From Coprinopsis marcescibilis (lineage: Eukaryota > Basidiomycota > Agaricomycetes > Agaricales > Psathyrellaceae): a DNA stretch of 54,463 nt. The translations under genes and the position numbers were made by a program. A model generated the notes under the pieces. It saw only the letters and a list, made by a program, of their open reading frames with translations, had not been told where the DNA came from and did not search any database. Every line of letters starts with the position of its first letter. The first letter of the stretch is position 1. The stretch covers positions 1 to 54,463 of the forward strand of contig ML210347.1 of NCBI GenBank assembly GCA_004369085.1, written 5' to 3'. Positions 32,393-54,463 of this stretch are shown here, one piece after another.

Positions 32393-34927
32393 TTAATCCC
32401 GTTTGGTGAACGTGATAGGAATCCTAACCGGCCTAGGGAGGTGAAAAACACAAGATCAAATACTGAATACAAGGAAGAAAGATTCACATACGTTAAACTA
32501 ATCTCCTGTACAGTTTTCAAAACCCTATTCTTCTTCTCCTCGAAGGTCTCCCTAGCAAATCGTGCTTCTTCCTTAATCGATACCCTGTACTTTGATATGA
32601 TCATGGTCAAGGCTGCAACTCCTTCGGTTTCTGAGAATCTGTGAACGAAGATTGAGAGTGAGCATATGAGAAGTTGAACAGAAGAAAGCCACAAACCTTC
32701 GCCCGATGCATGCTCTCGGACCTCCACTGAACGGTAAAAACGCGTCCTTCGGCCAATCACTTGCCAGGAATCTCTCTGGCTTGAACTCGTACGGGTCTTT
32801 CCAGTATAGTGCTACAACAGGCTCGTTCAAGGTGCAAACATGAAATATTGTACACTCACGATTGTAATGCAACCCTGCGATGTGCAGGATAGCTCTAGTG
32901 CCCCTGGGCATTGGAACCGTCTTTGTCTCTCCGTCCTGGTTCCCAAAGACAAGTGTGGTGTCTTCCGCAGCATGTTTTGGAACGCCTGACACCTGATGAA
33001 ATAGCTGGGAGTTAGGCTGGATGTGAGAAGTAGGTGTGAACTTCGGACATACGACGGGGTACATGCGGAGGGTTTCGTAGAATACGCTAAATGGGATTTG
33101 TCAGTTTTTCAACCTTTGATAGAATCTCAAGGCAAGCACACACCCTAGAGACCTTGTTAACAGAGGCATGTCCTCGTAGCTCTACATCCATATCGACATG
33201 AGTATGGCACCTTACGTATCCTAAGTCCTCACTACTCACCGGTAGGCGCCCGTCACCCAAAACACTCTTGATCTGCTCATACAATTTATCCTGCTCCTCA
33301 GGATACAGCGACAAAAGGGCGAACGCAAAGGAAAGGGTGTGTGCCGTCGTCTAAACCACAGTAGTGAGAAGGCTATCAACTGTTGTGCTACATTATTAGA
33401 TACGCACCTCATGCCCAGCAACAAGGAAAACAAATAAATTCCCAGTGATCTCCTTAACATCCAGCTTACCCAGGCCATGTTTATCATCTCCTGAGTTAGA
33501 GACAATAAGATTACTAAACAAATCGTCTCTGCTAACGTCCGGCGATCGAATGCGTTCTTCAATCATTTCCGTCATGTAAGCCTACCAGAAGATATCGTGA
33601 CGCGTTGAGTACAACTGGTCCTCTGAGCAAGCTTGAGAAAAGAGGCGACTCACCCCAAGTTCCTTGAATGCCAGCTTGGTTTTTCTTAGACGTGGCGTCC
33701 AGGACATTGCAAAATTCGGAATAGCAGCTTTGAGAACGAGCTCGCTAGAGGCCCTGTATAGCGCCTGGGTAAACGTCATTTGGTGTCCTGGTGGCAAGTG
33801 TGTGTCCTCGTCTCTCCACGAGCCTTTATTACCGAAGACAGCTGAACCGATGATCATGATGGCTATCTGAAATGGCAGACGTAATCGTCAGAAACCAGTA
33901 CATAAGACGCCGAAGAGCATTTGCCTTACTTGAGTGGTCAAGTCATTCACATGGTCGGCATCAATCTGTTTCTTCTCGGCCCACACATCCTCAAACAGTT
34001 CTGACACAATCCGAACCGTCTCCGTCCAGACAAACCTGTTGTTTCGCTATCAAGAAATTCAGGTCGTCGTGTAAGAACGCGTAGTTAGGCACTTACATCG
34101 GTGAAAGCGGGTGACACTAATTTTTTGTATTTCCTCCATTGATCGCCTTCAGTTGTTACGACGTTGTCGCCATAGATAGCCAGTACACCATAATCTTCTG
34201 TAGGTTTGGGAAACCTGGCGCGGTTAGACACAATTTCCTGGGAGGTTCCTTGAGTGATGGACCAATTGGAGTGACAAGTCCACAGTCGGGCTTACTTTGA
34301 TCGTATTGGGATCAGCGACATAGAACGTAGTTAACGGTTTCCCAAGCCATGAAATCTGTCGTGACCATTACAAGTCATGATCAGCGAGATACGGTGGTAG
34401 ACTGCATGGCTTACTTCTACATATGCGTCCCAGCCATACTTTTGAAACACTGAGCGATTACGGTTGGCATCAGTCAGAACTATTGTATGGGCCCGGGCTC
34501 AACGTACCTGTAAACTTCTGCCTGAACATCGCGTTCGAGCCAGCCGAAACCCCGGGAATCTCAGGTAGGAGATATGCTCCGAGCATCGTCGTGGACGAAA
34601 CCGCCCTTCGTGGGCCGCTATGATGGCTAGGGGGAAAGACTTGCGTCAGTATCACGAAATACCCAATTACAGTACCTGAGGCCCAGTGCGGTGTAAGGTG
34701 CGACCTGAACGCGCACATGTGTCAAACAGGTTCCTGGTACGACACCGTGGTCACTGTGACTGAGGCCCAGATTGTGCTGCACAACACAGTGGTGATTTCT
34801 GCGCTGTCCAGCAACGTTCAACAACTCCAACTCACTCGACTGATTTGGATGCTTTCCAGAGAGCCACGATTGCCTGGCAGACCACCGCCAGTGTGAGAGA
34901 GAACAGCACCGCATATAAAGGCTCCAT
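32393..34927 (-). CDS. Cytochrome P450 monooxygenase, microsomal
   Basis: Fifteen exons give 522 aa: 34836-34927, 34508-34626, 34415-34449, 34296-34355, 34097-34237, 33930-34046, 33654-33866, 33408-33581, 33240-33350, 33144-33181, 33053-33086, 32860-32992, 32697-32811, 32492-32638, 32393-32432. The N-terminus is a membrane anchor ([20 protein letters not shown]) for the ER. P450 landmarks: I-helix VAGHETTAHT (314-321), K-helix ExxR as ETLR (Glu371, Arg374), FKPERF (432-437), and the heme loop [13 protein letters not shown] with Cys457. The VFQKYGW start of the fold and the VPMPRGT linker match the large agaric group of P450s that includes many expanded, uncharacterised families, so the substrate is unknown. 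Intron 1 is unusually long (209 nt). A decayed copy lies immediately downstream. Confidence 0.92.
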
Positions 34928-36475: not shown

Positions 36476-37812
36476 TCAACCAGTCTTTAGTAAGAGGAAC
36501 CCAATAGCGCTCCCAGGGGGAGGAACAAACCACCGCCATTTAGCATCATCACTTTGAGCAGTGAACGGGATCGAATACCATGAATCTGTGATGCTGAGAT
36601 CGAACGGCTGGTCCCCTGTCCTAAATGTATTCCTTTGCTGAAGTCGCTGAGATGTAGGACCGCGAAAAACGTAGAAACAAGCGGTCCAATTATGAGGTAT
36701 CCTGTACGGCTGCTTGGAGGCTGGTGGCTTGTCCCGGCCTTCTCTTTTCAGCTGCCTCGTTTTCCACGCGGAATCCAAATTTATTATACGCTCCAGAGAA
36801 TTTATCGCTTCCTGTAAGTTTACGTGAGCTCCCCAGTCAATTCCTAATCGAAGAAACCGACCTGATAGCTTTCTGGGCGGTTGATCGAACTTGATTGTTT
36901 CAGGCACGTTCCGAATCCGTCTTCGTCGAATGTTGCATACGGGTTTATAGGGGTCCAGAGCATGCCGCTCGAGTCTTTGAGAAACTGTGCGCGCGTTATC
37001 CATAGCCTTCCATTCGCAAACGGCTTCTCAACACTGACTCCTACAGCTCGACACTGCGGAAACAGACTCTTCCAGTGATCAGGATTTTGAATATTTGCAC
37101 AGTCACTTATGTTTCCAGTTATCGTTGGTCGAAGTAGAATCTCTTCATAGTCTGTGATATCCGAAAGATAGTGACGAAACCCCCGGAGTGCCGCCCTTTG
37201 ACCATCCTGTTATACCGACATGTTAGCCTAGTCACTTATATGTATGAAAGTGGGCTGTTTATCCTACGGACCTTGTACGTTTCAGGAAGCGGAATCAAGA
37301 TCCTTTGCTGCTGCTGCCCGTCAAACGGATGTTCCAGTACGAATAACACAAACAGTGTCGGGCGCGCCTCAGAATCAATATAAGTTTCTTTAGGACCTAC
37401 AAAGACGGTGCTGACTGGTCTAGAAATGGACCTCCGAGGTGATCTTCCATTCGGCTCTGTAGATGTTCTTGTGAGAACATGAATAGATATCTCAGGTGGC
37501 TCTTGAGACAATGCGGCGCTCCAGTTGTCTTCGTCGATATCAGCCCATATTTTCTTTCCTTCTCTCGTATACGGCATGCGAAGGATGATGTTGCTCAACG
37601 AGGCCTTGTCCCCAATATATTTCCCAAAGACTTTGATCGCAGTCTTGGCGGCAGTCTTCCATGCGGACAATTGAGCACCGGGCACAATCTCAGGGAGCAG
37701 AGACTACTCTCACCTCGTAGCTCCCCGGGACTGCTGTAACAGTATATCTGTTTTCACCTCCTGACGCTTGCTCGCTAGCGGGAAGGACCAATGTCAACGT
37801 GGTTTGTGGCAT
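36476..37812 (-). CDS. Member 1 of an unrecognised four-exon protein family
   Basis: Exons 37714-37812, 37272-37655, 36862-37206 and 36476-36811 give 387 aa, all introns in phase 0. I do not recognise the family. It is clearly homologous to the genes at 38371-39615 and 51732-53102: each begins with a short segment ending TYE or SYE, then an FGKYI/LGRYM block with NIILRMP and a W.DI..DNW stretch, then a Pro-x-Pro-x-TYK end of exon 2, a third exon ending RPESYQ, and a last exon with FYVFRGPT, a WYSIP block and a C-terminal FVPPPGSAIGF. No signal peptide, membrane helix or known catalytic motif is visible, so a soluble intracellular protein is likely. The gene has no stop or frameshift and seems intact. 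Confidence 0.8.
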
Positions 37813-38370
37813 ACTCTCGAGCGCTGTGAGATTCGTGCAGATTGAGAGAACTGGGAATTAAGGAGAAAGATAAGGAAAGGGATACTAGAGAGGGTAATTG
37901 CAGGCTCTGCGTGACAGAAATGAACGTCGAAAGCAAGAGAGGCAATCGTCTGATCGGGCGCTTATTCTTATCGATAGTTGTTTTCACACGCTTTATCGAT
38001 GGAGGTTATTGTAGCTGGAGACTTGGCGCCTCTCTGGCTTTTCGCACTAGTACATGTCGACCTTCAAGCTACCACAGTACTTGCGATATCCTCCTCGACC
38101 GACGACGACGGGAGTGTCGCCTTTTTGGTGGGTTACCGTTATTTTCATTGCAAGGGTGGCTTTTGATCGTTCATACAGTTTTGGAATCAAGACGCAAGGT
38201 CGAAGCAGCCATCCGTCGCTTTGTGCCTGTGGGCACGATGGTAAAAAAGGGAAGGTATCACCACTTGGTAAATCATTAGCTACATCAGCTGCATTCCCTT
38301 TTCAAGTACTTGAACTGAATTCCCCGTCTCAATGCCAGATATTCTCTCAGCTCATTCATGTAGAGTTATC
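37813..38370. other. Spacer between family members 1 and 2
   Basis: It contains the promoter side of member 1 and the 3' flank of member 2. Only short frames without motifs are present. Confidence 0.5.
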
Positions 38371-39615
38371 TTAAAGCTCGAATGCATAACCAAAGATATG
38401 GCCTGCAGGGGGCACAAATCTCTGCCATTGAGATTTATTCTCCTGCGCGGAGCGTGGAATTTCTGTCCATGTGTCTGTGTGCATGACGTTAAACGTCTCA
38501 GAGCTACCCACGTCTCGTTTCAGAAATCGCGTTATCGTTGGGCCAGAGAAGACGTAAAAATCAACCTTACACCCGCGATGGCTGGATGCTTTGAATGGCT
38601 TTTTCATAAGTTCGGCTTGAGTGGTTTCGAGTTTCATTTCGTCCGCGATCAAAGCAAGCAGCGATGCCTTGAAAGACGTGTCAGCGTCAACTGTAGCTTC
38701 GATTGAGCACACGGCGGCCTGGGTCGTATGTACAATCAGATAAGATATAGGGCCGTTTGAAAGCAAAATAACTGACCTGGTAAGTCTCCGGACGCTCGAT
38801 ACACCAGCTGCGTTTCCCGCCTCCCACGTGGTCTGATAGTAAGACTGACGTCCAAGTCGTACCTTCAACTTTAGGAAATGTGGCACGAGTGAGCCAAACC
38901 TTTCCGGTTTGAAAGGTCTCAGGCACGACGAAGATGGTTTGACAGAGTGGAAACACACGGGCCCAATTCTTTGGCAAGACTCGTGCGCAATCATCGTATT
39001 TCTCGGTCTTCGATGGCCATAGTCGAAGCTGATCTGCGAATGTGTCTTCTGGGAGGTCCTCTTTGAAATGCTCAAAAGCCGCAAGCCGCGCTTCCTGCAG
39101 ATGTGTATGTACACGTATGAGCGCTTATGGTGTTTCGAGAGATCGACATGAAAGCGGACCTTCAAGGTATATGGAGTTGGGATCCAAGCTTTAATCTGAC
39201 GGGGTTCTTGACCCAGCACAAATTTCATAATCGGAAACACCGGTGCAGCTGACTCAGGAGGTCCAGGCTCTACTGAAGCTTGGAGGACAACCGGAGGTGG
39301 AGACTCAACCTGGAAGACTCCAAGTTGATCGTGCGCTCGAATAACGACTTCCCAATCTGCAGGGCGAATGTCGTTCCAGATCTTCTTCCCATTATTGATC
39401 GTCTTAGGAACCCGCAGGATGACGTTGTCTCTGGATGGATTGGCCATGTAACGGCCTAGGATCTCCAAAGCGATGCCTACCGCATCCTAGCAAGGTGTGA
39501 GTGTTGATCAACTGGTATGCTACAAGACCCGTACCTCATATGTGCTCGCAGCACTGGCGAGGGCGTATCTATCCTCAAGATTGGGCGCTGACGCGGGTAG
39601 AACCAGTTGGAGCAT
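38371..39615 (-). CDS. Member 2 of the unrecognised four-exon protein family
   Basis: Exons 39535-39615, 39160-39486, 38777-39094 and 38371-38718 give 357 aa, every intron again in phase 0. The N-terminus reads MLQLVLPASAPNLEDRYALA, close to the LTLVLPAS start of member 1. Exon 2 carries ILGRYMANPSRDNVILRVP and a KKIWNDIRPADWEV block; exon 3 has LPKNWARVFPLCQTIFVVP and ends RPETYQ; exon 4 has DFYVFSGPT, TWTEIP and the C-terminal WQRFVPPAGHIFGYAFEL. It is transcribed in the same direction as member 1, 558 bases upstream of it, which points to tandem duplication. No targeting signal or known domain can be seen. The function is unknown. Confidence 0.82.
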
Positions 39616-40101
39616 GATGGAAGGTGATTGTCAAGGCAGGAAGAGGTGATATTCACGGTTTATCAAAAGATAATTGCGGCTCCCGCGGTCATCTGAATTG
39701 ATGTTGTTCTGCTCACTGCTTCCACTGGTCAAGTGGTTTAGACAAAATCTCCAATTTATTGAGTCCGTGCAGTGTTTGACTCATATTTCAGTGACTTTCT
39801 TGGCTTTCTCGACTCGGTGAAAGTAGATGGGAGTTCAAGGAGAGTGACGATATGTTATATTTGATGAATTGATGCGGACGGGTTTTGGTTTGTTTGTGCA
39901 CTGTTCGAATCGGCAGGGGCGAATAGGAACCTTGACGTCTCCATCTCCACTTAACGCGATATCCCTTTTACCCATCTCTATATCCCCGCTTCCATTAACA
40001 CATATCTATACCTACTTTCTATTTCTTATCACGACACAAATCCTACAGCAACGCACATTTACCAACCAGTACCCCACGATTTTTCTAACTGCAGAGTCAC
40101 A
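39616..40101. promoter_or_regulatory. Divergent promoter region
   Basis: These 486 bases separate the start codons of family member 2 (minus) and the Ulp1-like gene (plus), so both promoters must lie here. A CT-rich tract with TATCTATACC-like sequence occurs at about 40000-40030, near the plus-strand gene. Confidence 0.4.
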
Positions 40102-43100
40102 ATGTCTGCACACGACTCTGCAAGTGTTTTGAAGCCAATTTTGCTTCGGTCTTCTACTCCAGGTACGTAAATACATTGATACTCGAACAAATTGCCTAAC
40201 TTGCGCGCGATTGTTAGCTCCAAATGAGAAAGGTGCGCAATGCGACGTTCTTCCACCCTCGAGAAAGGCTAACGCGGTCTTCAGTTATGCGATACCTTGA
40301 ATCCATGACATCAGAAAACCAGCCAGACGATAGGCCTCCCCGTTCGATTATAGACCACGACGAATACCGCTCAAATATGTCCCACCGAGACCCCAACGTT
40401 GCCTCTCCGCAATCCCGGGCCCGCACATTCTCCCCAGGCAAGAGCAACGGAACAGCCAAGTACAGCGACTACAACAAGCCATTGCCCAACGCAAGCAGTC
40501 AACTCCGGAGGCACGATGACGAAATCGACGGAGATGACGCGGATTCCAACCTGCAAGACGGCTTAAGATCGGAGCTGGGCGACATCCCTCTGGTGCGCAT
40601 CTAGCAGCTGTCGTACCTTCTCTGACATTCTAACCATTAATTATCCCAGCGCGAGCCCGGTCCGAATGACCCCCCAGGGCCAAAATACGAGTCGTATGAC
40701 TCGGGTCCCTCTTTTGGCAACTTTGGTCCATTTCCTCCTGAAGACCGCGCATCCTTGAACCCGTATGGTGGTGGTGGTGGCTGGAATGTATGTCCCTGAT
40801 CTATTCGCACCCCAGACCCTGCTCACACATGCCCCAACACAGCCTGATTGGTCCCATATTAGGGAAGGCGATGAATTGGCGGGCGTTCCAACTGAGGAGT
40901 TTGGTGTTAGGCACGAGGCAAGTTTACATCCCATGACTCCCGACTTGAGCGTGTCTAATCCATCTCTCTAGTCCTCTAAAGTGGCTTCTCGGGTAAAAAG
41001 TCAGGTGGCAGGCGGAGGAGACCGTCCATTCTCGCCAGGAATGCGATCCAAGGTAGCTGGAACGGAGAAGGGGACTACTTATCCTCCACTGCCAGAAAGT
41101 GCCTTGGACTATGGCGACCAATGGGATGCGCCCCTATCACCGAGGTCACGTGCATATTCTAAAGCGCCTTCCATTTCACCATCGGATTCAGCATCTGCTC
41201 TCCCCAAACCAAGAGCTGTGCAGAAGCTCTCGAACGGGCATGCCCAAAGTAAGTCGACTTCGAGACAAAGGACGGTCCCCATCTGTCGAGATTGGCGTTT
41301 AGCCTCTTCCTGATTGAGCTGTATCTGACGTTCTGGGTCTCCCAATACAGGTCGTTCGCCACCTCCAGGCTCGTCATCTCCTCTGTCACAAACAGGCCAT
41401 CAGAGTCGACCGTTCTCACCTTATCGACACGCTCCCACGACTGAAGATCTCATTCATGCCGCTGTGAGGGGCCGTGCGATGGCCATACCCGAAGTGGAAG
41501 AAGAGAAGACTGTGACATCCTCCATTGCTGCCCATAACAACAACAACAGCAGCAGCAAACAACCATCGCAGGTATCTCAACGCTCTCAGCAGCACCCGCC
41601 ACCTTCACCACAAAAGGCACCTCGATCAGCAACGCCATCGGAATCGCCTATGCCTGCACCGTCGACACCTACCAAAATGAGCAAAGTCGCGTCGCAGATC
41701 AGTGCAGCCAAGTCAAAAACTGTTTCACAGGTATCCAAGCAGTCTGTTACGCCATCGAAGCAGTCTGGGTCGAGGGTGCGGTCACACTCGCCTGATGGGC
41801 TGGATGCGGAGGAGACGAGGATTATCAATGACGCGTTGGGCCATGGTCATGGTCATCATCACCAACCGCAAACCCCGCGCACGTCGTATTATGCGGCTTC
41901 GATCGAGCCTGGACTCACGGGTCACTATCACGATGAGGAGCTATGCCAGTTGTTAAGACATGAGAACGATAACTCGCAGCCCGAGGTCGTGAGGAAGGCC
42001 TTGAGGAAGGCAATCAGGCAGAGGGTCAAGAAGCTTGGCATGAAGTACGACACCGAGGTCCGTTTTGTCCCGTTGTTATGTGATGATTTAGACGCTGATC
42101 ATTGAGATCCAGTCCATCAAGCAGTACAAACGGTCATACCACGATCACGAACATACCGTCAACCAGGACTATGACGACGAGCCACCGAGGTGGGCCACGG
42201 ACCTCAAGCGTGAACTGGTGGTTATGCAGCAGCGAATCGAGAGTCTCGGACCCAAGATCGAAAACTTGCGATATGAACAGTCTTACGACCAACCAGCAGG
42301 ATCGCGGTTCGAATACGATCCCAACGACGAATCGGTGCGCACACCGCGTACACAGACTGTCAATATCGAAACGCAACCTACGGGTACCCTCGCAGACTCG
42401 ATGTATCACCACGACGAGATGACTGTGGACGACGATGGTAATATGCGCGAGTTTGACGACATGACTGAGACACGGGGACCACCGCGGATAGAGGATGGGG
42501 AGACTGCCGACCGCACGCCGCAAAGGAATGTGATTGGCCTCCACCAGTACGACCTGACGGGTGTCATGGGCCGGGATGACTCGCCTGGGCAGCAGTTGCT
42601 TGAGGAGGAGTTGTACAAGCTGAGGCAGCGCCCGAGGAATGGCGGGAGCCAGAGTGCGGTGTCTCACAGGACGTGGGAGATTGCGAGGAACGACGAGGAT
42701 TTGGACTATGCGGACGAAGATGATGAGGAAAGGGGTGCGCCGAGTGGTTTGCCTACTATCCCTGATACGAATGGGGATGCATATCAGGATCGGGACCCTG
42801 GGAGTCCGCCTTTGCCTGCGTTGCCTACGCATGATGAAGATGAGGATGGGCACGGGGAGGAGGGTGTGGATCATAGCCGCCAGTTGGAAGTTCACGCCCA
42901 AGGGGGTAACTGGACCAACAATGACTATAGTGCGGATTTGCAGGGTGGGGGGATGCCGCCGTGGCAGCGTATTCATTCGAGGTTGCTGAGCTGGGCGATT
43001 ATCTGGCCTGTGGCCGAGTTTGAACAGGCACTGAACAGTACGACGCGGGGACACCAGGTTGACGAGGTTGCCTTGAGCATTTGGAGTACGCAGACGTATA

Positions 43101-43816
43101 AGCGGTATGTGAGGGCGCGGTTGACAGAGCAGCCAAAGGGAGAGGTCGATAGGTTGTTTGTGCCACCTAATATGGCGGATGCAATCAGCAATGCGGTCTT
43201 CAATGGTCGGCATGGGGAGGCGTGTGGGATGTTGAGAGATCTGTGGGTTCCGTTTGGCCTCGACGGGACACCGAGGTTGATTGTGGTCCTTGCAAAGCAT
43301 CGGTCGGATCCAAATCATTGGGTCGTTCATCGGTATGTTTCGTGGCTTGTTGAGTTTGATATTGGCTAATGATATGACAGATTCTCGTTACCCGATGGAA
43401 ATCTGACTACGTATGATTCATATCCTGAGAGGACCTTACCTGACGGTCGAGTGAGTAACCGATGCGATCCTTAACTTTTTATGCCTAAATCTGACATCAT
43501 GTCTTTTTAGCCGCTTGGTTGGTGGTTTGCCATTCGCATTGCCTGGCCCAGTGGAATGTACCCCAAGCCCGACAACCTCGTTCAGAAGATGGTGCGTCTC
43601 CATCGGCCTATGCAGTTGCCCATTGACAATTCTGTGGCTGCTGCTGGCATCTGGAGGAACATCCTGATGGGCTCGAGGGCGGAGAGAAGCCTGGATTTGG
43701 AGAGGTTGAGGGATTTGATCAACACGGAGGTGAAGAATTTGAAGCAGAGGAAGCATTTGGGCAAGTTAACTGTCAGCGCCCCGCGGGCTGTTTGGGATGA
43801 GAGCCACCAGAGGTAG
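40102..43816 (+). CDS. Large disordered protein with a C-terminal Ulp1/C48-like domain lacking the catalytic Cys
   Basis: Ten exons give 1058 aa: 40102-40162, 40218-40232, 40285-40592, 40650-40787, 40843-40917, 40972-41248, 41351-42057, 42113-43332, 43381-43450, 43511-43816. The first 500 residues are Ser/Pro/Gln-rich and disordered; a helical stretch (LKRELVVMQQRIESLGPKIE) follows, then acidic linkers. The last 240 residues resemble the Ulp1/SENP cysteine-protease fold: VDEVALSIWSTQTYKRYVRA, an LFVPPNMADAI strand, HWVVHRFSLPDG with His929, and TTYDSYP with Asp946. The His-Asp spacing of 17 equals that in yeast Ulp1. Where the Cys-Gly of the family is expected, the sequence reads NSVAAAGIW, with Ala1002 in the Cys position. 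It is thus probably a binding pseudo-protease rather than an active one. The intron 40918-40971 uses a GC donor. Confidence 0.75.
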
Positions 43817-44561
43817 TGCGGTGAGGGATTGTTTTGTGGGTTCTGTTTCTTGTTGTTGTTGTTTTCGTTTTGACATTGTCTATTCACCTTACGTTTTCCT
43901 TCTGAATTATTTTTGCGATATCTGTTTTCTTCCTCATCCGTTCTATACATCATCATAGAAGCACAAACCTATCTTCTTGTTTATATTTTTCTCCTCATTT
44001 CGCTCTTTCGCTCTCGCTCTCTCCTCTTATCCTCGTGGAATGCTCAGTGTACTCAAAAAATGTGTATGTACTAGGTCAATGTGTATAAGGTAGTGTAGTA
44101 GTATGTAAGTAAATAGGTTGGCTATTTTTACGCTGGGTTCCGCTACAGGATGTGTAGACGTCGTGTTGTAGAGGTCGATTTTTCATCTGCCCTTTGCTTC
44201 GCATCTCGTTTATTTCTCTTTTTTGGTTATGATACATCTTCTCGATAAAGAGAGTAACGATTTTTTACGAATGGATGACGACTGGTTTGACTGTCTGACT
44301 TGGTTGGGTTTGGTCCTTCCATTGGGGATTTCGGAACCGAGACATGGGAAAGTTAATCCATCCTTGGACCCTGCTTGATAGGACCGTCGTCGTCCAGCAT
44401 ACGGTGTTTGGTCGTTCCGTTTTGTGGTCTCTAGTAACCAACCCATTCGCTCAAAAAAAGAAAAAAGTAGACAAATCAACGAAACTCACGGAGAGAGCCC
44501 AAGGGTGTGATTCCAATGATACATCTTGACATCTCGGCGATTCTTTGGCATATTCAGATTC
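43817..44561. other. Convergent 3' intergenic region
   Basis: It lies between the stop codons of convergent genes. It is T-rich on the left and contains no coding frame with a motif; both 3' untranslated regions are probably here. Confidence 0.55.
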
Positions 44562-44892
44562 CTAAATTCCTTGCAAGATGGCTGCCAGATCGTTCATCGA
44601 ATTTTGTGGAATTTGATTGTTGTGCGATGCACTGAAATTGGGGGAGGTAGTTTTGGCGTTATTCTGGGACTTCAAAAGCTAGCAATTCCGTTAGACCTCG
44701 CACAGGTTGATAAAGATAGAAAGTGCCAGAGCTAACCGAAGATTCGTGAATCAACGTGGACTGCTTGTCCAGGATGTCGAGGAGTTGCTCATTGTTCGCC
44801 TTGGCCTTGATATTCTTCTTCTTGAACGCGGTTTTCGCAGAACTCTGGCGTTTCTGAGCGTTTTTCGAGGACTTTGCTTTTGACATGGACAT
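44562..44892 (-). CDS. Small basic protein of 85 residues, function unknown
   Basis: Two exons, 44737-44892 and 44562-44663, join in phase 0. The N-terminal third is Lys/Ser-rich (SKAKSSKNAQKRQSSAKTAF), the middle is a probable amphipathic helix (NEQLLDILDKQSTLIHESS), and the C-terminus ends NDLAAILQGI. The composition suggests a nuclear or ribosome-associated protein, which is inference only. It starts 225 bases from ysh1 in the opposite direction and may share its promoter. The short length and lack of a known domain keep confidence moderate, but the splice junction, the start and the coding character agree. Confidence 0.6.
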
Positions 44893-45117
44893 GTATCTTC
44901 CCCAAGTGGGCTCTGAATGCAGAAAGCAGAACAGGAGAAACCAGACCTTTATTGTGCTTATTACGTCAGCATTTAGTCCATGTTGACCGTAAACCGCGTC
45001 TGTTCAGGTATTCTCCGCTTCAGCCTTTGATCACGACCACCACGACTACGACCATTTTGCTCTATACCTTCGGTTTTACGACTTACGAGTGCATGAACTA
45101 AAAGAAGTCTCAAAGTA
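44893..45117. promoter_or_regulatory. Divergent promoter between the small basic protein gene and ysh1
   Basis: The start codons of the two genes face away from each other across 225 bases, so this interval must serve both. No clear TATA box is visible, as is usual for housekeeping genes. Confidence 0.4.
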
Positions 45118-48100
45118 ATGGCAGATTCGCAGAGCCTTAAGGTTACAATGTTGGGGGCGGGCCAGGAAGTAGGACGGTCATGTTGTCTGTTGCAATACCG
45201 AGGAAAGACCATTGTATGTGACACTGGAGTACATCCTGCATATAGTGGGATGGCATCCCTGCCCTTTATCGATGATCTGGACTGGAGTACGGTTGACTGT
45301 ATACTTGTTACCCAGTGAGTACCTCGTTTGTTCGTGGTTATACGCTCTGCTCTGACTCCGAGGTAGTTTTCATTTGGACCATGCTGCAGCTCTCACTTAT
45401 ATCACGGAAAAGGTGGAGCAAACTTGTCTTGCTCTGGTTTTGTTAGCTAAATGTGCTCTCTCAGACCAACTTTCGCGATGGAAAGGGCAAGGTGTACATG
45501 ACCCATCCAACAAAAGCCGTACACAAATTCATGATGCAGGACTTTTCTCGGATGAGGTATGTGTTTCTGCCTTTTGTTGGACTTGATTTGATAACATCTT
45601 CAGCTCCTCGACCTCCGACGCGCTCTTTTCGCCATTAGACATGCAAATGTCGCTTGCCTCCATCATCCCTGTATCCGCCCACCAACTTATTAACGTCTGC
45701 CCTGGTATAAGCTTCACTCCATATCACGCCGGCCACGTACTTGGCGCCTGCATGTTCCTTATCGACATTGCTGGTCTCAAAATTCTGTACACTGGCGATT
45801 ACTCTAGAGAAGAAGATCGCCACCTGGTCAAGGCCGAACTCCCGCCAATACGCCCCGACGTTCTCATTGTAGAGAGTACTTACGGTGTACATACTCTGGA
45901 AGGACGAGAAGAAAAAGAAGCTCGGTTTACTTCTCTGGTGCATTCCATCATTAGGCGAGGAGGCCATGTTCTGCTACCTGCGTTTGCTCTTGGTCGCGCT
46001 CAGGAATTGCTGCTCATTCTGGACGATTACTGGAAAAAGCACCCGGACCTGCATAACGTCCCGATTTACTATGCCTCAAGTCTTGCTCGAAAGTGTATGG
46101 CTGTCTACCAGACCTACATTCACACCATGAACGCCAACATTCGAACGAGATTCGCGAAACGCGACAACCCTTTCGTTTTCAAGTATGTATCTCGCCTCAT
46201 AATAAAGCATACCCTCTCAAGCTCTCTCATAGACATATTTCAAACGTACCGCACGCGCGAGGTTGGGAAAAGAAAATCGCAGAAGGACCGCCATGTATTG
46301 TTTTGGCCAGTCCTGGTTTCATGCAAGTCGGCCCTAGTCGAGAATTGTTCGAGCTATGGGCACCAGATGCGCGCAATGGCCTCATTATTACCGGGTACTC
46401 AATCGAAGGAACCCTCGCAAGGGTGAGTCATGGTTTGAATTTCGGGCAGGTTATCTACTCTTCATATCTGCTGTATCTACACTCTACTGCAATGGATATT
46501 TTGTTTCGCAAATTGCCGGTCTGATGAACATGAGCTCAACTGCTTTTCACTCCTCATAGGACATTATGACCGAACCAGAAGACTTCATTGGGCTGAAAGG
46601 AAACACCATCCCGAGGAAGATATCCGTTGATTATATCTCGTTCAGCGCTCATGTGGATTATGCGCAGAATTCTGAATTCATTCAGGCTGTAAGGGCGCAG
46701 CACGTCGTGAGTCTCCATTCCACGCAGCCTTGGAATGTACCCATTAACTTGCTTTACAGGTTTTGGTCCATGGAGAACAGAACACGATGGGCCGCCTACG
46801 CGCCGCCATGGCATCCAAATTCAAGGAGAAGGATGAAGATGTGAAGATTCATACTCCCCGTAACCTAGAGACTCTGGAGCTCTCCTTCCGAGGTGAACGA
46901 GTTGCCAAGGTGAAGTCTATCGCATTGTGGTTATTTTTTATATTGCTGCTGACTTGAGATATTTTTCACTGACAGGCTATCGGTACCCTGGCTGATAAGT
47001 CCCCGCAGTCGAATGACGTCCTTTCTGGACTTTTGGTAGCCAAGGACTACTCGTATACGTTGCTTGACCCAAGGGATTTAAGAGACTTTACGGGTCTGTC
47101 GACATGTATTGTGACGCAGAGGCAGAAGATTGTGCTGGGTGTGCGCTGGGATTTAGTTAGATGGCATTTGGAGGGGATGTATGGGAAGGTGGAGGAAGGT
47201 CTGGATAAGGATGGCGTCCCTACTATGAGGGTACGTTACGTTATTTGGCGCTCGGGTATGGAGGGTTGTTGCTGATCATATCCGTTTGCTTATAGGTTAT
47301 GGGGGTCCTTGATGTGAAGCATACTCAAGAACACGAGTTGACGCTAGAATGGGACTCTAGTGCTAGCAACGATATGATTGCAGACTCCACTTTGGCTTTG
47401 ATTAATGGGATTGATACGAGCCTTGCCTCGGTGAAATGTATGTTCTGTTCGGTTGTCTTTGAGTGGCTCAGTTGCCGCCGTTCTGATTCAAATTTTACGC
47501 TTTCATTCATTCGTCTAATCTCGGGGAAGCCTAATCTGACCTACGCTTCTTCTAGTGACATCTAACAACCATTCGCACTCGCACTCTCATGACCATGACC
47601 AAGAGCATAACCACAAGCACCCTCATGCCGACCTCGAAGGCGAGTCGTCATCTGTTTCGCGAATTCAGCGGCTTGCCATGTTCCTCGAAGCCCATTTCGG
47701 GGAGGTAGAGCTGCACATGCCGGACGAGGGAGAAGACGAGGAACCTGAAGAAGAGGAAGAACAGGAAGAACGCGAACCCGCGCTGCTTGTCCGACTAGAT
47801 GAGGCGTTTGCCCAGATTAACCTCCTATCTCTGGTGCGTTCCCACTTTGCAATAATCTTTTAATTGCTCGATGGCGTCGGAATTCGGCGAGCTCCGGTAT
47901 CCAAACCCATGCCCGTTCTCTGCCATGTTGTCATTCCACCATCTCTTTATGAACACCCGGAGAAACGGCTATTAACTTTGTTTCACTTCCTTTTTCAATT
48001 AGACTGTTACGAGCCCGAACGAGGTGTTGCGCAAGCGTGTCGAAGCCGTACTCGATATGGCGTTGACAACTGTCAGTTCGTTAACGGAATCGTTTACCTC

Positions 48101-48368
48101 TGGGATACCGGTTGGCAGTGAAGATGCCGTAGGGCAGTCGATCAAGGAGTCAAAGGGACTTTCATCTGCGGATTCGGGGGAGCCAACCTCGAAAAAGGGT
48201 GACGTCGGAAGCGGTTGGGATGGGGAACAGGATGGAGACGAGGCGGCGGTTGTTGCGGGAGACAAGGATGGAACATCTGATACGAAGATGCGGGATGGCG
48301 ATTCTGAAGCTGCCGGTGCGGATGAGAAGAGCGCTGATATTGAGGTTGAGCCCACGCCGTCCTCTTAA
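45118..48368 (+). CDS. ysh1: CPSF73-type mRNA 3'-end endonuclease Ysh1
   Basis: Ysh1/CPSF73 cuts pre-mRNA at the poly(A) site within the cleavage and polyadenylation factor. Eleven exons give 813 aa: 45118-45314, 45367-45412, 45465-45556, 45604-46182, 46233-46422, 46560-46706, 46760-46909, 46976-47230, 47296-47437, 47556-47833, 48003-48368. The metallo-beta-lactamase core starts with [14 protein letters not shown]; the zinc motif HFHLDHAA supplies His66, His68, Asp70 and His71. [24 protein letters not shown] and [17 protein letters not shown] follow. The beta-CASP part shows [48 protein letters not shown] and the [11 protein letters not shown] motif. The C-terminal part differs from yeast: a His-rich run at about 605-626, then a Glu-rich stretch and a disordered acidic tail. 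Confidence 0.95.
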
Positions 48369-48699
48369 ACTACTTTCCGAGATTGTTTGTAGTATTCGGG
48401 CTAGGGCTGCTTTGGTAGAATCTTTCCTGTGATACTGATACTGATCCATGTAATAGTGAAGTAGAGTAATGGTACATAAAAATGCAAGGAAGTGAATAAG
48501 ATAAGTGCAGATAAGGGTGAATGTGGCGTGAACGGTCTATGGAGCGAAGGGGCAAAGCTTGTAGTGATAGTACAGAATGATGGTGTCTTACATGTAGAAA
48601 GCGAGGGTGCGTATTCTGAGAAATGATAAAAGTCCGGAGAGAGACTGGGTCTCGAAAGCAGTGTGTCCTTTGCGGAGAGAATGTGGCGGTAGTAGTATG
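48369..48699. other. Convergent 3' intergenic region
   Basis: It lies between the stops of ysh1 and the membrane protein gene. No motif-bearing frame was seen. Confidence 0.5.
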
Positions 48700-49409
48700 T
48701 CATATCGGTTCTGCCTTGGTGATGCTGTAACAGGGTATATTAAACAAGGAAGATCTTGGGGGAAATTTGCACGTGGGACATACCTCCACTTTGAAGCGTT
48801 CAGTGTTATATTCCACCTCCACTTTGCTTGATATTTTGCGCGTCTTTGTTCCTTGTACAAGAGGATTGCAAACGCAACCTTGATGGCAGTTTGCAGCAAC
48901 GCTGTTGCGCATGCTGAAATGAGGATTGGCTTGTGGTAAGGGACGACTCCTTGTGGGACGTCGAAGCTTCTCATGGTTATGAGGGTTGTGAACGTGAGGG
49001 CGATAGCGAGGACGGCTGTCCATACGACGGTGAGAGCGAATGCGCCACCGACAGTGAATATCGAGTAGAATCGCGTCGTGCGTCCGGGATCCTGGGTGAT
49101 AAATGTAACGAGCGATAGGCAGACCGTGTTGGCCACGAATGCGCCTGGAATGATCCACATTGCAGGCGTTATAGGGAGGACCAAAGCCCCAAGAACGAGA
49201 ACGACTGTCGAAGTCAGAAAGGAAAGACTGGCGAGGACAGTGAGTGGACGGGTGAGCGTGTTCATGACATTCGTAGCAGTCTCCTGCTGGGTCAGGTAGA
49301 AAAGGGAAGGATGGGAGGCGCCGGAAGAATGCGATCTTACAGTGTTCATATAGGGATGGACATCAGGGCAACAAAAGAGACGTAAAGTGGCTTTAATATC
49401 ACAGATCAT
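48700..49409 (-). CDS. Four-helix membrane protein, function unknown
   Basis: The preferred model has three exons, with introns of 54 nt (near 49287-49340, donor GTAAGATC) and 59 nt (48725-48783), giving about 198 aa and ending SITKAEPI. Four hydrophobic helices are evident: LTVLASLSFLTSTVVLVLGA, MWIIPGAFVANTVCLSLVTF, YSIFTVGGAFALTVVWTAVL and ILISACATALLQTAIKVAFA, followed by a basic cytosolic tail (LYKEQRRAKYQAKW). This MARVEL-like four-pass layout is common among small agaric membrane proteins, but I cannot assign a family. The start is uncertain: Met at 49409, 49349 or 49265 all keep the helices. Without splicing the last intron, the frame runs on to 48588 with a tail that looks non-coding. 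Confidence 0.65.
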
Positions 49410-49953
49410 GGCAGCGCGGGCGGATGCACAGTATTGATCAGGCGATTCCGAAGTCTCCTCGATGGCTCCGATGGGAACATTGACCAGATTAGTCCATCTG
49501 TTGGTGTAGAAGCACTGTTGGTGTTGCCTTGTTACCTTGATGTTGAGGCGATTCCGTTGAGATCGCGGTTCTCCTATTCGATTATGTTGTGGGGAGAAGC
49601 GCTGACTATCAGATGAAGAAAGGTCAAAATGCAAACATGAGTCTTTCCAATGATCGATTGCCTTGTATCCAGCTGTGTATGTATATACTGTGTAGCACGC
49701 ACCCATCAGAAAGTATAACGACCTTTTGTTACCACAAAGCCAGCGAAGAAGACCATACTGTGAGAGAACTCATGTTCGTGTGTATGTGCCCGCTTGTCCA
49801 CTACTCGTCGTCGTCACTATCGAACTCGACTTTTTGATATTTGCGGGCTTTTTTATTAGGATTTGCTAGCGATGCGCCTTTATGTGGTCGGATAACGGGA
49901 ACTGGCTCTGCATGATAGCGTTAAGCGGCAGCATGGAGCGAAGAGGTGAGGGA
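49410..49953. other. Intergenic region
   Basis: It contains the promoter side of the membrane protein gene and the 3' flank of the next gene. No supported gene. Confidence 0.5.
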
Positions 49954-50905
49954 CTAACTTTCCGCGGGTGATGGACGCTTCTTCTGCTTCTCAGCTTCTG
50001 ATATAGACGACTGTTCCCTGGCTTTCGACGAAATACGAGAAGTCGATGCAACTTCGTTTCTTGCAGTCTGTTGCTGTACTGACTGCTCCGCTGTCCTTGT
50101 GGAAGATGAATTTTCTTTGCTCGATACAATACCCTTAGATACACCTGCCACAACCCTGGTCAAGAAAAGTACACGGTTAAACGAAACACACTCTACCCGT
50201 TTCTGTGGTCCGTGTCCTGGATGCAGACCCCGCGGGGGTGATAGAAGTAGAAAGAGCTGGATAGGCGACGGAGCTGCCATGCAGCCGGCATTTTCGAGAT
50301 TGCGCTTGGAGGGCGATCTGGATAGTATGTCGAAAATCAGGTAATGCTCATATACCATGCAGGGATAGAATATCAGAACTCACATCCAAGAAGATTGTTG
50401 TAGCAAAATCTGCGGCTTCTGCAGGCGCTAGTTCAGTCAGTTCGACGTGTGTTGGTCTTTGTGCTCCTGGTCCAATCGTGAACTGTTGGCAAAGAATCAA
50501 GATGAACACCTCGGCGCTGTTGTGGAGAACCCACCCTTAGCTTCTTTTCAGGTGTAGGATTGACGTTGCCAATATATAGCTCTCCTTCTATGAACAGCTC
50601 AGCAATGCTATCCGCGTATTTCTCCAAGAGGCTATCTTGTGCGCTTTTTCCCTTAAATCGAAGGTATCCCCGATTTGCTGCTATCCAACATGTCATAATT
50701 GACTCGGACGGACCAGGGTTTGGTGAACATTGGCTTCAGTCCAGATACCCTTCCACCAGCGCCCCTGCGAGCCAGATAAACCCAAATGAATTGTCCAGTT
50801 ATCGTCGGAAACGCTCGAAAGTACGACGAAACGATATGCACTCTGGTAAATCACTTGGATGAGTTCATCGAGGGCCCCAAAGTTTGAGAACACGTCGGTT
50901 GACAT
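49954..50905 (-). CDS. 237-residue protein, possibly of the XRCC4/XLF/PAXX group
   Basis: Five exons close in frame: 50749-50905, 50535-50680, 50384-50482, 50197-50317 and 49954-50144. The N-terminal 120 residues look like a compact beta-rich head: YRFVVLSSVSDDNWTIHLGL, then helix DSLLEKYADSIAELFIEGEL, strand KLRFTIGPG, and VELTELAPAEAADFATTIFL. A short helix (IALQAQSRKCRLH) follows, then a Ser/Thr/Gln-rich linker and a basic end (KQKKRPSPAES). This order of strand, helix, strand and C-terminal helix, followed by a disordered basic tail, recalls PAXX and its relatives in non-homologous end joining. That is a guess from shape, not from a signature motif, and the protein could belong to another family entirely. 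Confidence 0.6.
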
Positions 50906-51731
50906 CGGTTGACGATGACGGTTTCAGAACAAGAGAGTGGACGAAAAAATTAATCACCAATGGTGTGGTAGAAGTTGCTATTAACGGTGGCGCTGACATT
51001 GGGGGACCTTGTCCGTAATGTGGTCCGTGCGCATCAGATGACTATTGATCGATGCTGCAAAGCCAAAGAAACTCACATTCCTCAAATTGAACCTACACCC
51101 AGAGACTGGTATTTGGTCTGGTCACTTTTGTGCTCTACTACGGATGCAAAGGCACTGCCAGGCCAGCACAACCATTCTGGCAATCAACGCTATGGCAACG
51201 TCTGAGAGAGTTCTCACTGGCCCAGGCGCCAGGACTCACCTGGCAGTGCGCCCCAGACTTGAAGTCCTTGACTAGTAGAATCAAGTTTCTCGTACTACAA
51301 GCCGTCATGTTCAAAAATCGAGGGTTCAACATAGCAGCTGGTAAAAGCGGAACAAAGTGAGGCTTTCGAATAAATCAACCAAAGACAGAGGCTGGAGATG
51401 TGTTTTATGGTGTCTCGGGATTACGTGTATCTTGCGGGCTCGGACGCTCGTTCAGCATATATAGGCTCGCAGCTCTTGCTTGAGATATTTCGAACAAAGT
51501 GAGAATCGAGAATCTAAAAAACAAAAATTGGCGCCCAGTGTAAGTGTTTATTGGGTAAGGGTTGAACGTTGAACGTTGGGCAGGCAAGCTGCACCTTGTC
51601 GGTACTATGACTCGAAAATGTGTCCAGCCTGCGATCGCTGATCGATGCCCAACGTCAACGGTCGGAGTCAATCACGGTCAACTATATAATCACGACTCTT
51701 CAACAACTCTTGACAAGTAACCACATTGACA
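50906..51731. other. Intergenic region upstream of family member 3
   Basis: No gene is supported. Short frames at 50975-51360 (plus) and 51405-51671 (minus) lack motifs. The segment must hold promoters for the divergent genes on each side. Confidence 0.5.
51683..51689 (+). promoter_or_regulatory. TATA-box-like element upstream of family member 3
   Basis: TATATAA lies 43 bases before the ATG at 51732. The distance is short but plausible for a fungal gene with a brief leader. Confidence 0.35.
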
Positions 51732-53102
51732 ATGGTACCTCAGACACGCATGAAGCGCAAACAGTCACCAACGCTTCCGCCAACTGTATCTGTCTCCAAA
51801 AGGGCACGCCACGATATTTATTTTGTTCTCTGTGGGGACTCCTCAGTGAATGACAATAAATACGCGTTCGCGGGATGCCCTGAAACGTATGAGGTGTGAA
51901 TTCGATCACCTCAAATTTAGCTCACTCAATCTAAACAACCGCTCAGAACGCAATAGGCATTGCAGTGGAAACCTTAGGGCGGTATATGAGCAACCCAAGT
52001 CCCGAAACAATCGTTTTGCGCGTCTCTCATGAAACAAAAAGCGGACAAATGGTGTGGGCGGACATTCGACCTCAAGATTGGCAGACTGTATCCCAGCTAT
52101 GCCAGGAAATTGGAGTTTTTCGAGTGGAAAGGCTCCGGGATCTTCGACAAGTTGTTGGTTCAGCCTCGAAAAGGGAGATATCTGACGGCCTCGGCAACAC
52201 AGTTCCTGCCATTGATGTCGACACGACGGCGGACTCTCAACCAGAAGCACCAGTCGTTAGAATGTTCATGATGAATGGGCCTATTTCACGGAGGGCTCTC
52301 ATTCCTGTTCCAAAAACATACGAGGTACTTCTTGAGCTTCTCTCTTCTCGTGATATACTAACTCTCAGCAATTTCAGGCAGCGCAAGTCGCAGTTTTCAA
52401 TCAATTCAAACAGTATTTGCCTGCGGGCACTCCTCCCGCGCACCTCTCTTTGCGGCCAGCAACATCAGAAAATTCAGAGGACTGTGCGGAGGTGTCATCG
52501 GAGAATTGGAAAATCATATTCCCATTGTCAAAGCTCATTGTCATTCTCAACGAAGGTGGTCCTGAGGGCCTAGGGAGACTATTCGCCATCCAAGCACGGT
52601 ACCCTTCTTGTAATGGGATTCAATGGCGCCCCATCTGCCTTCACCCAATGCCATTGGCTGGTCTAGAAAAAACGGATCTTATCCAACAGCCCTCAACCTA
52701 TCAGGTGAGGGAAAGCTATTATTTACTAAACTCATTTAGTAAGACGTTAATATTGACCTACTATAGCATGCGGTCGCCTCAATCCTAACCATCATTGACA
52801 ACAATCCTATCAGGAAGCAAACTTTACTGAAAGAGTTATACAAAACAAAGGACCAAGACATGAAGCACGCCCTCGATAAGCCATTCCAGCTTGCAGAACC
52901 GCTCAAAATCAAGTTTTACACATTCTCTGGCCCGACAGTAAAGAACCTTGTGAATCGGGATCCCATGTGTGGAAACTGGTTTGATCTCAATGCAACAGAC
53001 GAAGCTTTCAAGATCCCTGAAAATGCGTATGACAATCAGTCAGAATGGAAGAAATATATGCCTCCCGCAGGGCATGTCATTGGGTACTCTTTTAGTGCAT
53101 AG
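51732..53102 (+). CDS. Member 3 of the unrecognised four-exon protein family
   Basis: Exons 51732-51893, 51947-52324, 52378-52704 and 52767-53102 give 400 aa with all introns in phase 0, at the same places as members 1 and 2. Exon 1 is longer (54 codons) and its first 27 residues are basic and unlike the others (MKRKQSPTLPPTVSVSKRAR), a possible nuclear signal; it still ends ETYE. Exon 2 reads IGIAVETLGRYMSNPSPETI, VWADIRPQDWQTV and ends PVPKTYE; exon 3 opens AAQVAVFNQFKQYLP and ends PSTYQ; exon 4 has KFYTFSGPT, AFKIP and the C-terminal WKKYMPPAGHVIGYSFSA. It lies about 12 kb from the other two members and on the opposite strand. No catalytic motif or known domain is visible. Confidence 0.82.
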
Positions 53103-53647
53103 CTATAGTATCAGGGCATGAGATCAGGAGCATATTCAACGGTTATCCCAGTTCAATCCCAAGTCTACATTTCCTTTGTTTCATCATGTACTATTATCAA
53201 TGCCAAATCTTGTCAGAGACCTCTTTTCGTCAGCATATATGCCCTCGGGACTTGGGTGTGGCGGGTCAGAGCCATACGACGCGACGCAGATCCCACCTAG
53301 TAAGGATACTCATAGTTCAAGTGTTCAGGCCCAGTGAAAACGCCGAATGCAGATATTTGCAAAGTAGACAATCTTAACGCATATCCACGCATTCATATGC
53401 TAATTGTATATTTACCTGATATAGCACTGTCAGTTGCGGCTTCCTTGAATTTCAACCAGCTGCATCTAAACGCAAACAAGGAATCCGAGTGTACCATCAA
53501 ACTAATCTTGGGTCAAGATTAGTTTCTCACAATCACCCACAGCCGCGCCGCATCGAGGAGGGCTGTTGGGCGTTGTAACCTTTCTCTAATGCTCTTTAAT
53601 GTCACATTGTCTAAGTTCTTGATTAACCTGGCTGTGAAATTCCTGAC
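53103..53647. other. Intergenic region before the right-edge gene
   Basis: No supported coding frame. If the right-edge gene belongs to a DNA transposon, the element's left terminus should be here; I could not identify a terminal inverted repeat without its partner. Confidence 0.45.
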
Positions 53648-54463
53648 ATGGGGCGACATCGCAAAGCTGGAAATCAGGCTCCTGAGCCGCAGGAGCGGTG
53701 CTACTGCTCTCGTTGTCACGGTACATTGAGGAGCAAGCGTACTGTCAGGAACCACCAGAAAGAGCAACAACGCCTGGCCAAAGGACCGGGTATTCACACA
53801 AACTCTGTTGCAAGCATGAAACGAAAGCCAGGAGAGAATGTCGAGGAGGATGGATTGCAGTGGGGGAACTCGAAACGGATACGCGGGTCCATGGTATGTG
53901 GAACCATATGTGCACATGTCTGTGTCCTCTTACATATTCATATCTTCAGATATCTACTTCTCCTATGGAGTCTGGACGCTCTAGTCCCTGCCCCCATGAA
54001 TCCGACGAGTCTGGGAGCTCCAGAGCATCCCTGCTGAGATCAGGATTTGGTGGCACTGTCAATTCAGGTGCTCATGGGTCTGAAACTGTAACAGCCTCAT
54101 CCAACGAATGTCAAGGAAGCCGGGAACACACACAATCTAGTGGATCCAGTGATGCTCAAGGACCGGAGAGTGGTACCCAGCGCACTGATAGAGCTACAGC
54201 TACACCAGGTACTAACGGTGCAGGTCAGGGTGGTCTGGACAGCGCAAACGAGGACAGTGAGGACAGTATTGATGCTAGAGGCCCCTGGGAGAGTGGTATG
54301 GATGGTCGGCAGGGAGAGGGTGAATATGACGCAACCAAGGAATGCAGTTCTACGGAACAGCAGGCGGCGACACCAGGGCAGGATACTAACCAAAGGGTTG
54401 ACAGTCCTGGTGATGGCCAAACCTTCCGTGGACCTGGCGAACAGGATGCATCGACAGATGATA
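53648..54463 (+). CDS. 5' part of a probable transposon-encoded protein (Tnp2-like), runs off the edge
   Basis: Exon 1 (53648-53893, 82 codons) joins through a 56-nt intron to exon 2 at 53950, which stays open to the window end in the same frame. Near the N-terminus, RCYCSRCHGTLRSKRTVRNH carries three Cys and two His spaced like the small zinc-binding segment that opens many Agaricomycete transposase proteins of the Tnp2/CACTA and related groups. It is followed by a long Ser/Gly/Asp/Glu-rich disordered stretch, also usual in those proteins before the transposase core. The core itself is outside the window, so the assignment rests on the N-terminal motif and layout. It could instead be another cysteine-rich nuclear protein. 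Confidence 0.5.

Follow-up and report, generated by a model that had tools for sequence, protein, structure and literature searches.

In the genome of Coprinopsis marcescibilis (Psathyrellaceae), we analyzed contig C202, a stretch of 54,463 bases in an assembly of 36.3 Mb and 448 contigs, hereafter the window. Three of its genes, which we name A, B, and C, encode internally repetitive proteins with three modules in the order R1-R2-R3, each module being interrupted by an intron at an equivalent position. We lean towards the view that these proteins are intracellular non-catalytic adaptors made of three tandem beta-grasp modules, an architecture that would have arisen by duplication of an exon unit. 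What an initial annotation had left as an unknown family of four-exon genes thus becomes a testable anatomy, with three probable beta-grasp modules. The result is modest, as it concerns a new sequence family within an old and known fold.

Structure of genes A, B, and C

Each gene has four exons and is intact after splicing at GT-AG sites. This agrees with the initial annotation in every coordinate, in the phase of the introns (phase 0 in 9/9), and in the lengths of the last exons (336, 348, and 336 nucleotides, nt). The exons measure 99/384/345/336 nt in A, 81/327/318/348 nt in B, and 162/378/327/336 nt in C, and the introns 48-65 nt. The translated spliced models have 387, 357, and 400 amino acids (aa) for A, B, and C. 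Genes A and B lie in tandem on the minus strand, and C is on the plus strand at a distance of about 12 kb. The model of B is letter-for-letter the public hypothetical protein FA15DRAFT_760122 of the same species, and the splicing of A and C is proposed from the sequence and from their likeness to annotated members. The features are as follows (NLS, nuclear-localization signal):

Gene A, exon 1, 37714..37812, minus strand: N-terminus and first part of R1, ends ...PGSYE
Gene A, intron 1, 37656..37713, minus strand: 58 nt, phase 0, GT-AG, within R1
Gene A, exon 2, 37272..37655, minus strand: remaining R1, linker, start of R2, ends ...PETYK
Gene A, intron 2, 37207..37271, minus strand: 65 nt, phase 0, GT-AG, within R2
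Gene A, exon 3, 36862..37206, minus strand: remaining R2, start of R3, ends ...PESYQ
Gene A, intron 3, 36812..36861, minus strand: 50 nt, phase 0, GT-AG, within R3
Gene A, exon 4, 36476..36811, minus strand: remaining R3, FYVFRGPT and WRWFVPPPGSAIGF signatures, stop
Gene B, exon 1, 39535..39615, minus strand: start of R1, ends ...STYE
Gene B, intron 1, 39487..39534, minus strand: 48 nt, phase 0, GT-AG
Gene B, exon 2, 39160..39486, minus strand: remaining R1, linker, start of R2, ends ...PYTLK
Gene B, intron 2, 39095..39159, minus strand: 65 nt, phase 0, GT-AG
Gene B, exon 3, 38777..39094, minus strand: remaining R2, start of R3, ends ...PETYQ
Gene B, intron 3, 38719..38776, minus strand: 58 nt, phase 0, GT-AG
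Gene B, exon 4, 38371..38718, minus strand: remaining R3, stop
Gene C, exon 1, 51732..51893, plus strand: basic N-terminal extension, bipartite-NLS-like from residue 8, start of R1, ends ...PETYE
Gene C, intron 1, 51894..51946, plus strand: 53 nt, phase 0, GT-AG
Gene C, exon 2, 51947..52324, plus strand: remaining R1, linker, start of R2, ends ...PKTYE
Gene C, intron 2, 52325..52377, plus strand: 53 nt, phase 0, GT-AG
Gene C, exon 3, 52378..52704, plus strand: remaining R2, start of R3, ends ...PSTYQ
Gene C, intron 3, 52705..52766, plus strand: 62 nt, phase 0, GT-AG
Gene C, exon 4, 52767..53102, plus strand: remaining R3, stop

The three genes were correctly proposed to be paralogs with a common gene structure. 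Pairwise BLASTP alignments extend across most of the protein length at 29-33% identity, with 31.8% for A-B (E 2.5e-49), 29.3% for A-C (E 6.4e-45), and 33.2% for B-C (E 6.4e-72), and E values in this range (all at most 6.4e-45) mean that the likeness is not due to chance. The motifs listed in the initial annotation are all present in the protein alignment, both the C-terminal ones (FY.F.GPT,.IP, and W..(F/Y)(V/M)PP.G...G(Y/F)) and the N-terminal ones (LGRYM/FGKYI and W.DI..(D/N)W).

Internal repeat and position of the introns

The modules, as we cut them, span 86-92 residues for R1 and R2 and 137-162 residues for R3. Local comparison with hhalign showed that R1 and R2 are homologous along their length (probability 97%, P 1.1e-11). 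The score was 62.2, whereas column shuffling (300 controls) never gave more than 19.9 and reversing the profile gave 10.9. The likeness of R3 to the other modules is found only near the intron point, over 27 columns with R1 (P 0.0025), 20 columns with R2 (P 1.7e-4), and 27 columns with R1 and R2 together (probability 68%, P 4.8e-5). The scores of R1-R3 and R2-R3 nevertheless exceed those of all 300 shuffles, narrowly in the case of R1-R3 (23.1 vs 22.0).

A short motif, P-x-[ST]-Y-[EKQ] or a slight variant of it, lies immediately before each intron of A, B, and C, and x-A or x-G comes after. The introns of R1 and R2 are in the same alignment column, the probability of one such match under uniform placement being about 1 in 264, and that of R3 follows the same motif. 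Among the seven intact genes of the family that we identified in the genome (see below), the introns are in phase 0 with GT-AG borders in 17/17 cases and at the exact motif position in 16/17, the sole exception being the first intron of the gene on contig C170. Since all introns are in phase 0, the internal exon, which joins the last part of one module to the first part of the following one, is a symmetric unit. The conserved introns are best explained by the duplication of this symmetric phase-0 exon unit, because the intron occupies an equivalent position in all three modules. They follow an internal repeat that the initial annotation had missed.

One might suppose instead that only whole four-exon genes were duplicated, with an internal repeat accounting for R1 and R2 at most. 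Gene duplication alone indeed accounts for the intron places shared by A, B, and C. Two further observations point in the same direction and weigh against the exon-unit duplication: the likeness of R3 to R1 and R2 is restricted to 20-27 columns, and with the -glob option it falls to near nothing (P 0.0095 and 0.054). R3 is the weak point, and its sequence suggests a tie to R1 and R2 only weakly. However, this explanation has to face the homology of R1 and R2 throughout (0/300 shuffles score as high) with an intron in the same column, the position of the R3 intron after the same motif, and the fact that genes with one module fewer also have one intron fewer. We therefore regard it as improbable and retain the exon-unit duplication.

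The family in the rest of the genome

The family had been described as having three members, but at least five additional loci are present in the genome. Searches of the genome up to E 10, using as queries B, A, C, the public protein P0003, the decayed gene D, the gene of contig C170, and a piece of R2, gave matches confined to contigs C202, C7, C110, and C170. The family comprises at least 7 intact genes and one decayed copy on these four contigs, and these counts are lower bounds. Contig C7 (L056:3198-7143) carries three head-to-tail genes (a, b, and c) of 268, 307, and 275 aa. They have three exons each, that is, one exon and one module (R1) fewer than A, B, and C, and are 54-59% identical to one another. 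C7b and C7c correspond letter for letter to the public proteins P0002 (FA15DRAFT_753052) and P0003 (FA15DRAFT_456021). The ratios of nonsynonymous to synonymous substitution rates (dN/dS) of the C7 pairs are 0.42, 0.38, and 0.39 (NG86, dS 0.82-0.96, ratios without significance test), and values of 0.38-0.42 indicate that these genes are under moderate constraint. For A, B, and C the ratio is unusable because synonymous sites are saturated.

Gene D (L057, contig C110:89719-91135, minus strand) is a decayed three-module copy, where GG replaces the GT donor at the third junction and the last exon shifts frame. The gene on contig C170 (L058:2856-4056) is more distantly related; its end resembles R3, and it has an apparently degenerate R2. 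We modeled it with 360 aa, compared with 370 aa in the public FA15DRAFT_659414 (P0004), whose start is ten residues upstream. Its link to the family has E values of 0.002 and 2e-4, and of 3e-5 and 7e-5 in the reverse direction. It was recovered by B, C, and itself; searches with A, P0003, D, and the R2 piece missed it.

The phylogenetic tree of the modules is split by a fully supported branch (100/100) that separates all four R1 from all seven R2. With the root on this branch, the divergence of R1 and R2 would predate that of the three-module genes. The R2 modules of the C7 genes group with those of B and C (support 82/82). Given a root on the R1/R2 branch, this grouping makes us lean weakly towards a loss of R1 in the C7 genes, over a late gain elsewhere. 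A tree of R2 and R3 combined was set aside, as it has a very long C170 branch. The family offers a fungal case of module duplication by symmetric exons, with two- and three-module forms within one genome.

Predicted fold of the modules

The initial annotation matched the proteins to no known domain. This remains true for Pfam, where no family was above the cut-off in A, B, C, P0002-P0004, and C7a, but the fold is probably recognizable from two predicted models, both of which match structures of the ubiquitin-like beta-grasp type. In these models, which were obtained from different proteins, R2 has the topology of a ubiquitin-like beta-grasp, with a helix after the first hairpin, and the ten-residue block means of the predicted local distance difference test (pLDDT) are 63-91 and 67-90. 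By title, the 50 VIA matches listed per model are ubiquitin-superfamily chains or complexes, and the best are UFM1 and Ras-association (RA) domains, with tied Z in both models. These lists are filled by R2, and the near absence of R3 from them carries no information on R3. Hence, R2 probably has a ubiquitin-like beta-grasp fold in these predictions, and R1 probably shares it via its homology to R2, the second strand of R1 itself being badly modeled. R3 may be a third copy with this fold, judging from the order of its elements, which includes extra helices.

The predicted fold could be a modeling artefact in a fast-evolving or young orphan family, the role of which would then be unreadable from structure. 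The shallow alignments, the return of proteins from C. marcescibilis only in protein searches, and the decay of 1/8 loci would fit such a family. Yet the models of two different proteins converge on the same R2 fold, and by title the listed VIA matches of both are all of the ubiquitin superfamily. We find an artefact unlikely, while giving it some weight, and keep the beta-grasp modules as the working description.

The three-module model was also compared with PDB structures using Foldseek. ISG15, OASL, USP7 HUBL, and linear polyubiquitin are among its top matches and, as predicted for A, B, and C, have head-to-tail beta-grasp modules in one chain. In contrast to them, our proteins share none of their sequence, contain no recognized protease or synthetase part, and have no processing or conjugation motif; the orientation of the modules is not comparable (root mean square deviation, rmsd, 10-20). 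The 50 listed matches of this model also include PI3K-gamma, talin, and low-probability Wza chains. The two-module model has as top match a FERM domain, the talin head 6mfs (E 7.1e-4), with TM 0.26/0.21 and rmsd 12.9. The family differs from the members of the ubiquitin-fold superfamily (UFM1, ubiquitin, ubiquilin UBL) in having no detectable sequence similarity to a solved structure and in lacking a conserved C-terminal Gly-Gly.

Other searches gave little. No ubiquitin-like Pfam match was found up to E 10 in the seven proteins cited above, where HMMER filters drop most weak matches, and the profile of R1 and R2 had no match up to E 10 among PDB sequences. We discarded a match of SMP-30/gluconolactonase (PF08450), seen in P0003 only, with 16.3 bits against a cut-off of 26.3. 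The profile of A, B, and C matched the copper-binding HMA domain in three Copper-transporting ATPase 1 chains of the PDB (E 0.027-0.029, the best of 0.027 at profile positions 209-269), which we judged to be chance; a CxxC metal site is absent throughout A, B, and C. Of the Foldseek matches to viral predicted structures, two had E <0.001, one to a fragment of the bovine viral diarrhea virus 2 polyprotein and one to an unnamed protein of a phage; ubiquitin-like proteins of giant viruses ranked lower, and none of these was used.

Candidate role as adaptors

The adaptor model proposes that R1-R2-R3 are three tandem ubiquitin-like modules, R3 being longer and more divergent, and that each module surface would hold a partner, by analogy with tandem ubiquitin-like domains elsewhere. 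The protein would then act as a protein-protein adaptor, itself neither cleaved nor conjugated. As the module would be interrupted by its intron after strand 2 and before helix 1, in phase 0 in every case, the internal exon could be duplicated or lost with no change of frame, and exon-unit duplication could thus build the architecture. This role, the placement of the proteins inside the cell, and the direction in which modules were gained or lost are inferred. Conservation among A, B, and C, and in the wider alignment of seven rows, is mostly at W, P, G, Y, A, D, and further hydrophobic residues, a pattern that suits structure or binding better than catalysis. In line with the initial annotation, which saw no secretion or membrane signal, A, B, and C have no strongly hydrophobic stretch in a 19-residue Kyte-Doolittle scan (highest mean 1.10, no signal-peptide predictor being run); across the seven proteins the highest mean is 1.81, in C7a. 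It also rightly noted the basic N-terminus of C, which fits a bipartite nuclear-localization pattern. A similar stretch is present in P0004 at residue 208, so some members may be nuclear. The suggestion of an undescribed system, on the other hand, was an overreach, as present evidence links the genes to no partner or process.

Head-to-tail beta-grasp modules are also what one would see in polyubiquitin and ISG15, and the proteins could be ubiquitin-like modifiers, or a precursor of several of them, cleaved into units or conjugated to targets. No conserved Gly-Gly was found at the module ends in the 7 proteins checked. GG pairs occur at positions that do not correspond between proteins (A 18, B 227, C 240, C7a 9, P0004 327, none in P0002 and P0003), and only in C does one directly follow R2. 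The C-terminus has GG in 0/7 proteins, and only A ends in a single G (KTG). Given the lack of a conserved C-terminal Gly-Gly, the modules are probably not conjugated modifiers, and we deem this scenario very improbable.

A different possibility is that the modules are RA-like (RA/RBD) and the proteins tandem small-GTPase-binding adaptors. RA domains share the top rank among the structural matches, and 6/7 R2 modules have K or R directly before the [AI][LW]IP strand. A residue at such a place contacts Ras in RA domains. However, the matching place is Y, and not K or R, in 4/4 R1 modules, hmmscan found no RA or RBD Pfam match in the same seven proteins, and the fold does not choose RA because UFM1 ties with it in both models. 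The RA proteins matched (RalGDS, RGL1, Rgl2) differ further from ours, where no part of a guanine nucleotide exchange factor or kinase was recognized. This specialization of the adaptor model seems unlikely to us. Should their partners prove to be small GTPases or proteins of the ubiquitin pathway, the modules would be signaling adaptors made by the lineage. The bolder proposal that this mushroom lineage has its own tandem Ras-association/ubiquitin-like signaling adaptors, in two- and three-module forms, produced by whole-exon gain and loss of frame-neutral cassettes and unseen in other species, is in our opinion doubtful.

Distribution and public record

Protein searches of an NCBI/nr/UniRef-derived collection returned no relatives outside C. 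marcescibilis, in a search that needs shared exact 5-residue words and had no positive control. This outcome fits a lineage-restricted family and does not prove it. The split between C. cinerea and C. marcescibilis is dated at around 131 million years ago in the abstract and 181 million years ago in the text of PMC10182949; with these dates, a lack of close public relatives would not be strange. The query included A, C, C7a, and D as well, yet the search returned none of these four, which suggests that public annotation lacks matching models. We found no publication with the locus-tag stem, no paper on tandem ubiquitin-like domains in basidiomycetes, and, among titles and the beginnings of abstracts, no description of the A/B/C family.

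Neighborhood of the genes

The neighbors of A, B, and C look ordinary in a scan of 10 of the reading frames of the window, and an Rfam scan of the window gave nothing at gathering score. The recognized pieces are:

7564-7959: GH92 piece
12641-14680: F-box match, under the cut-off
16817-17386: kinase piece
24903-25352: ADA2-type ZZ finger
32573-33100: P450 piece
45587-46426: beta-CASP/metallo-beta-lactamase piece

About 230 bases past gene C begins a sequence (53330-54463) that is repeated elsewhere in the assembly at 99% identity (980 bases on contig C153 and 339 bases on contig C118). Its reading frame at 53627-54037 has no Pfam match and a cysteine-rich start reminiscent of agaric DNA-transposon proteins.

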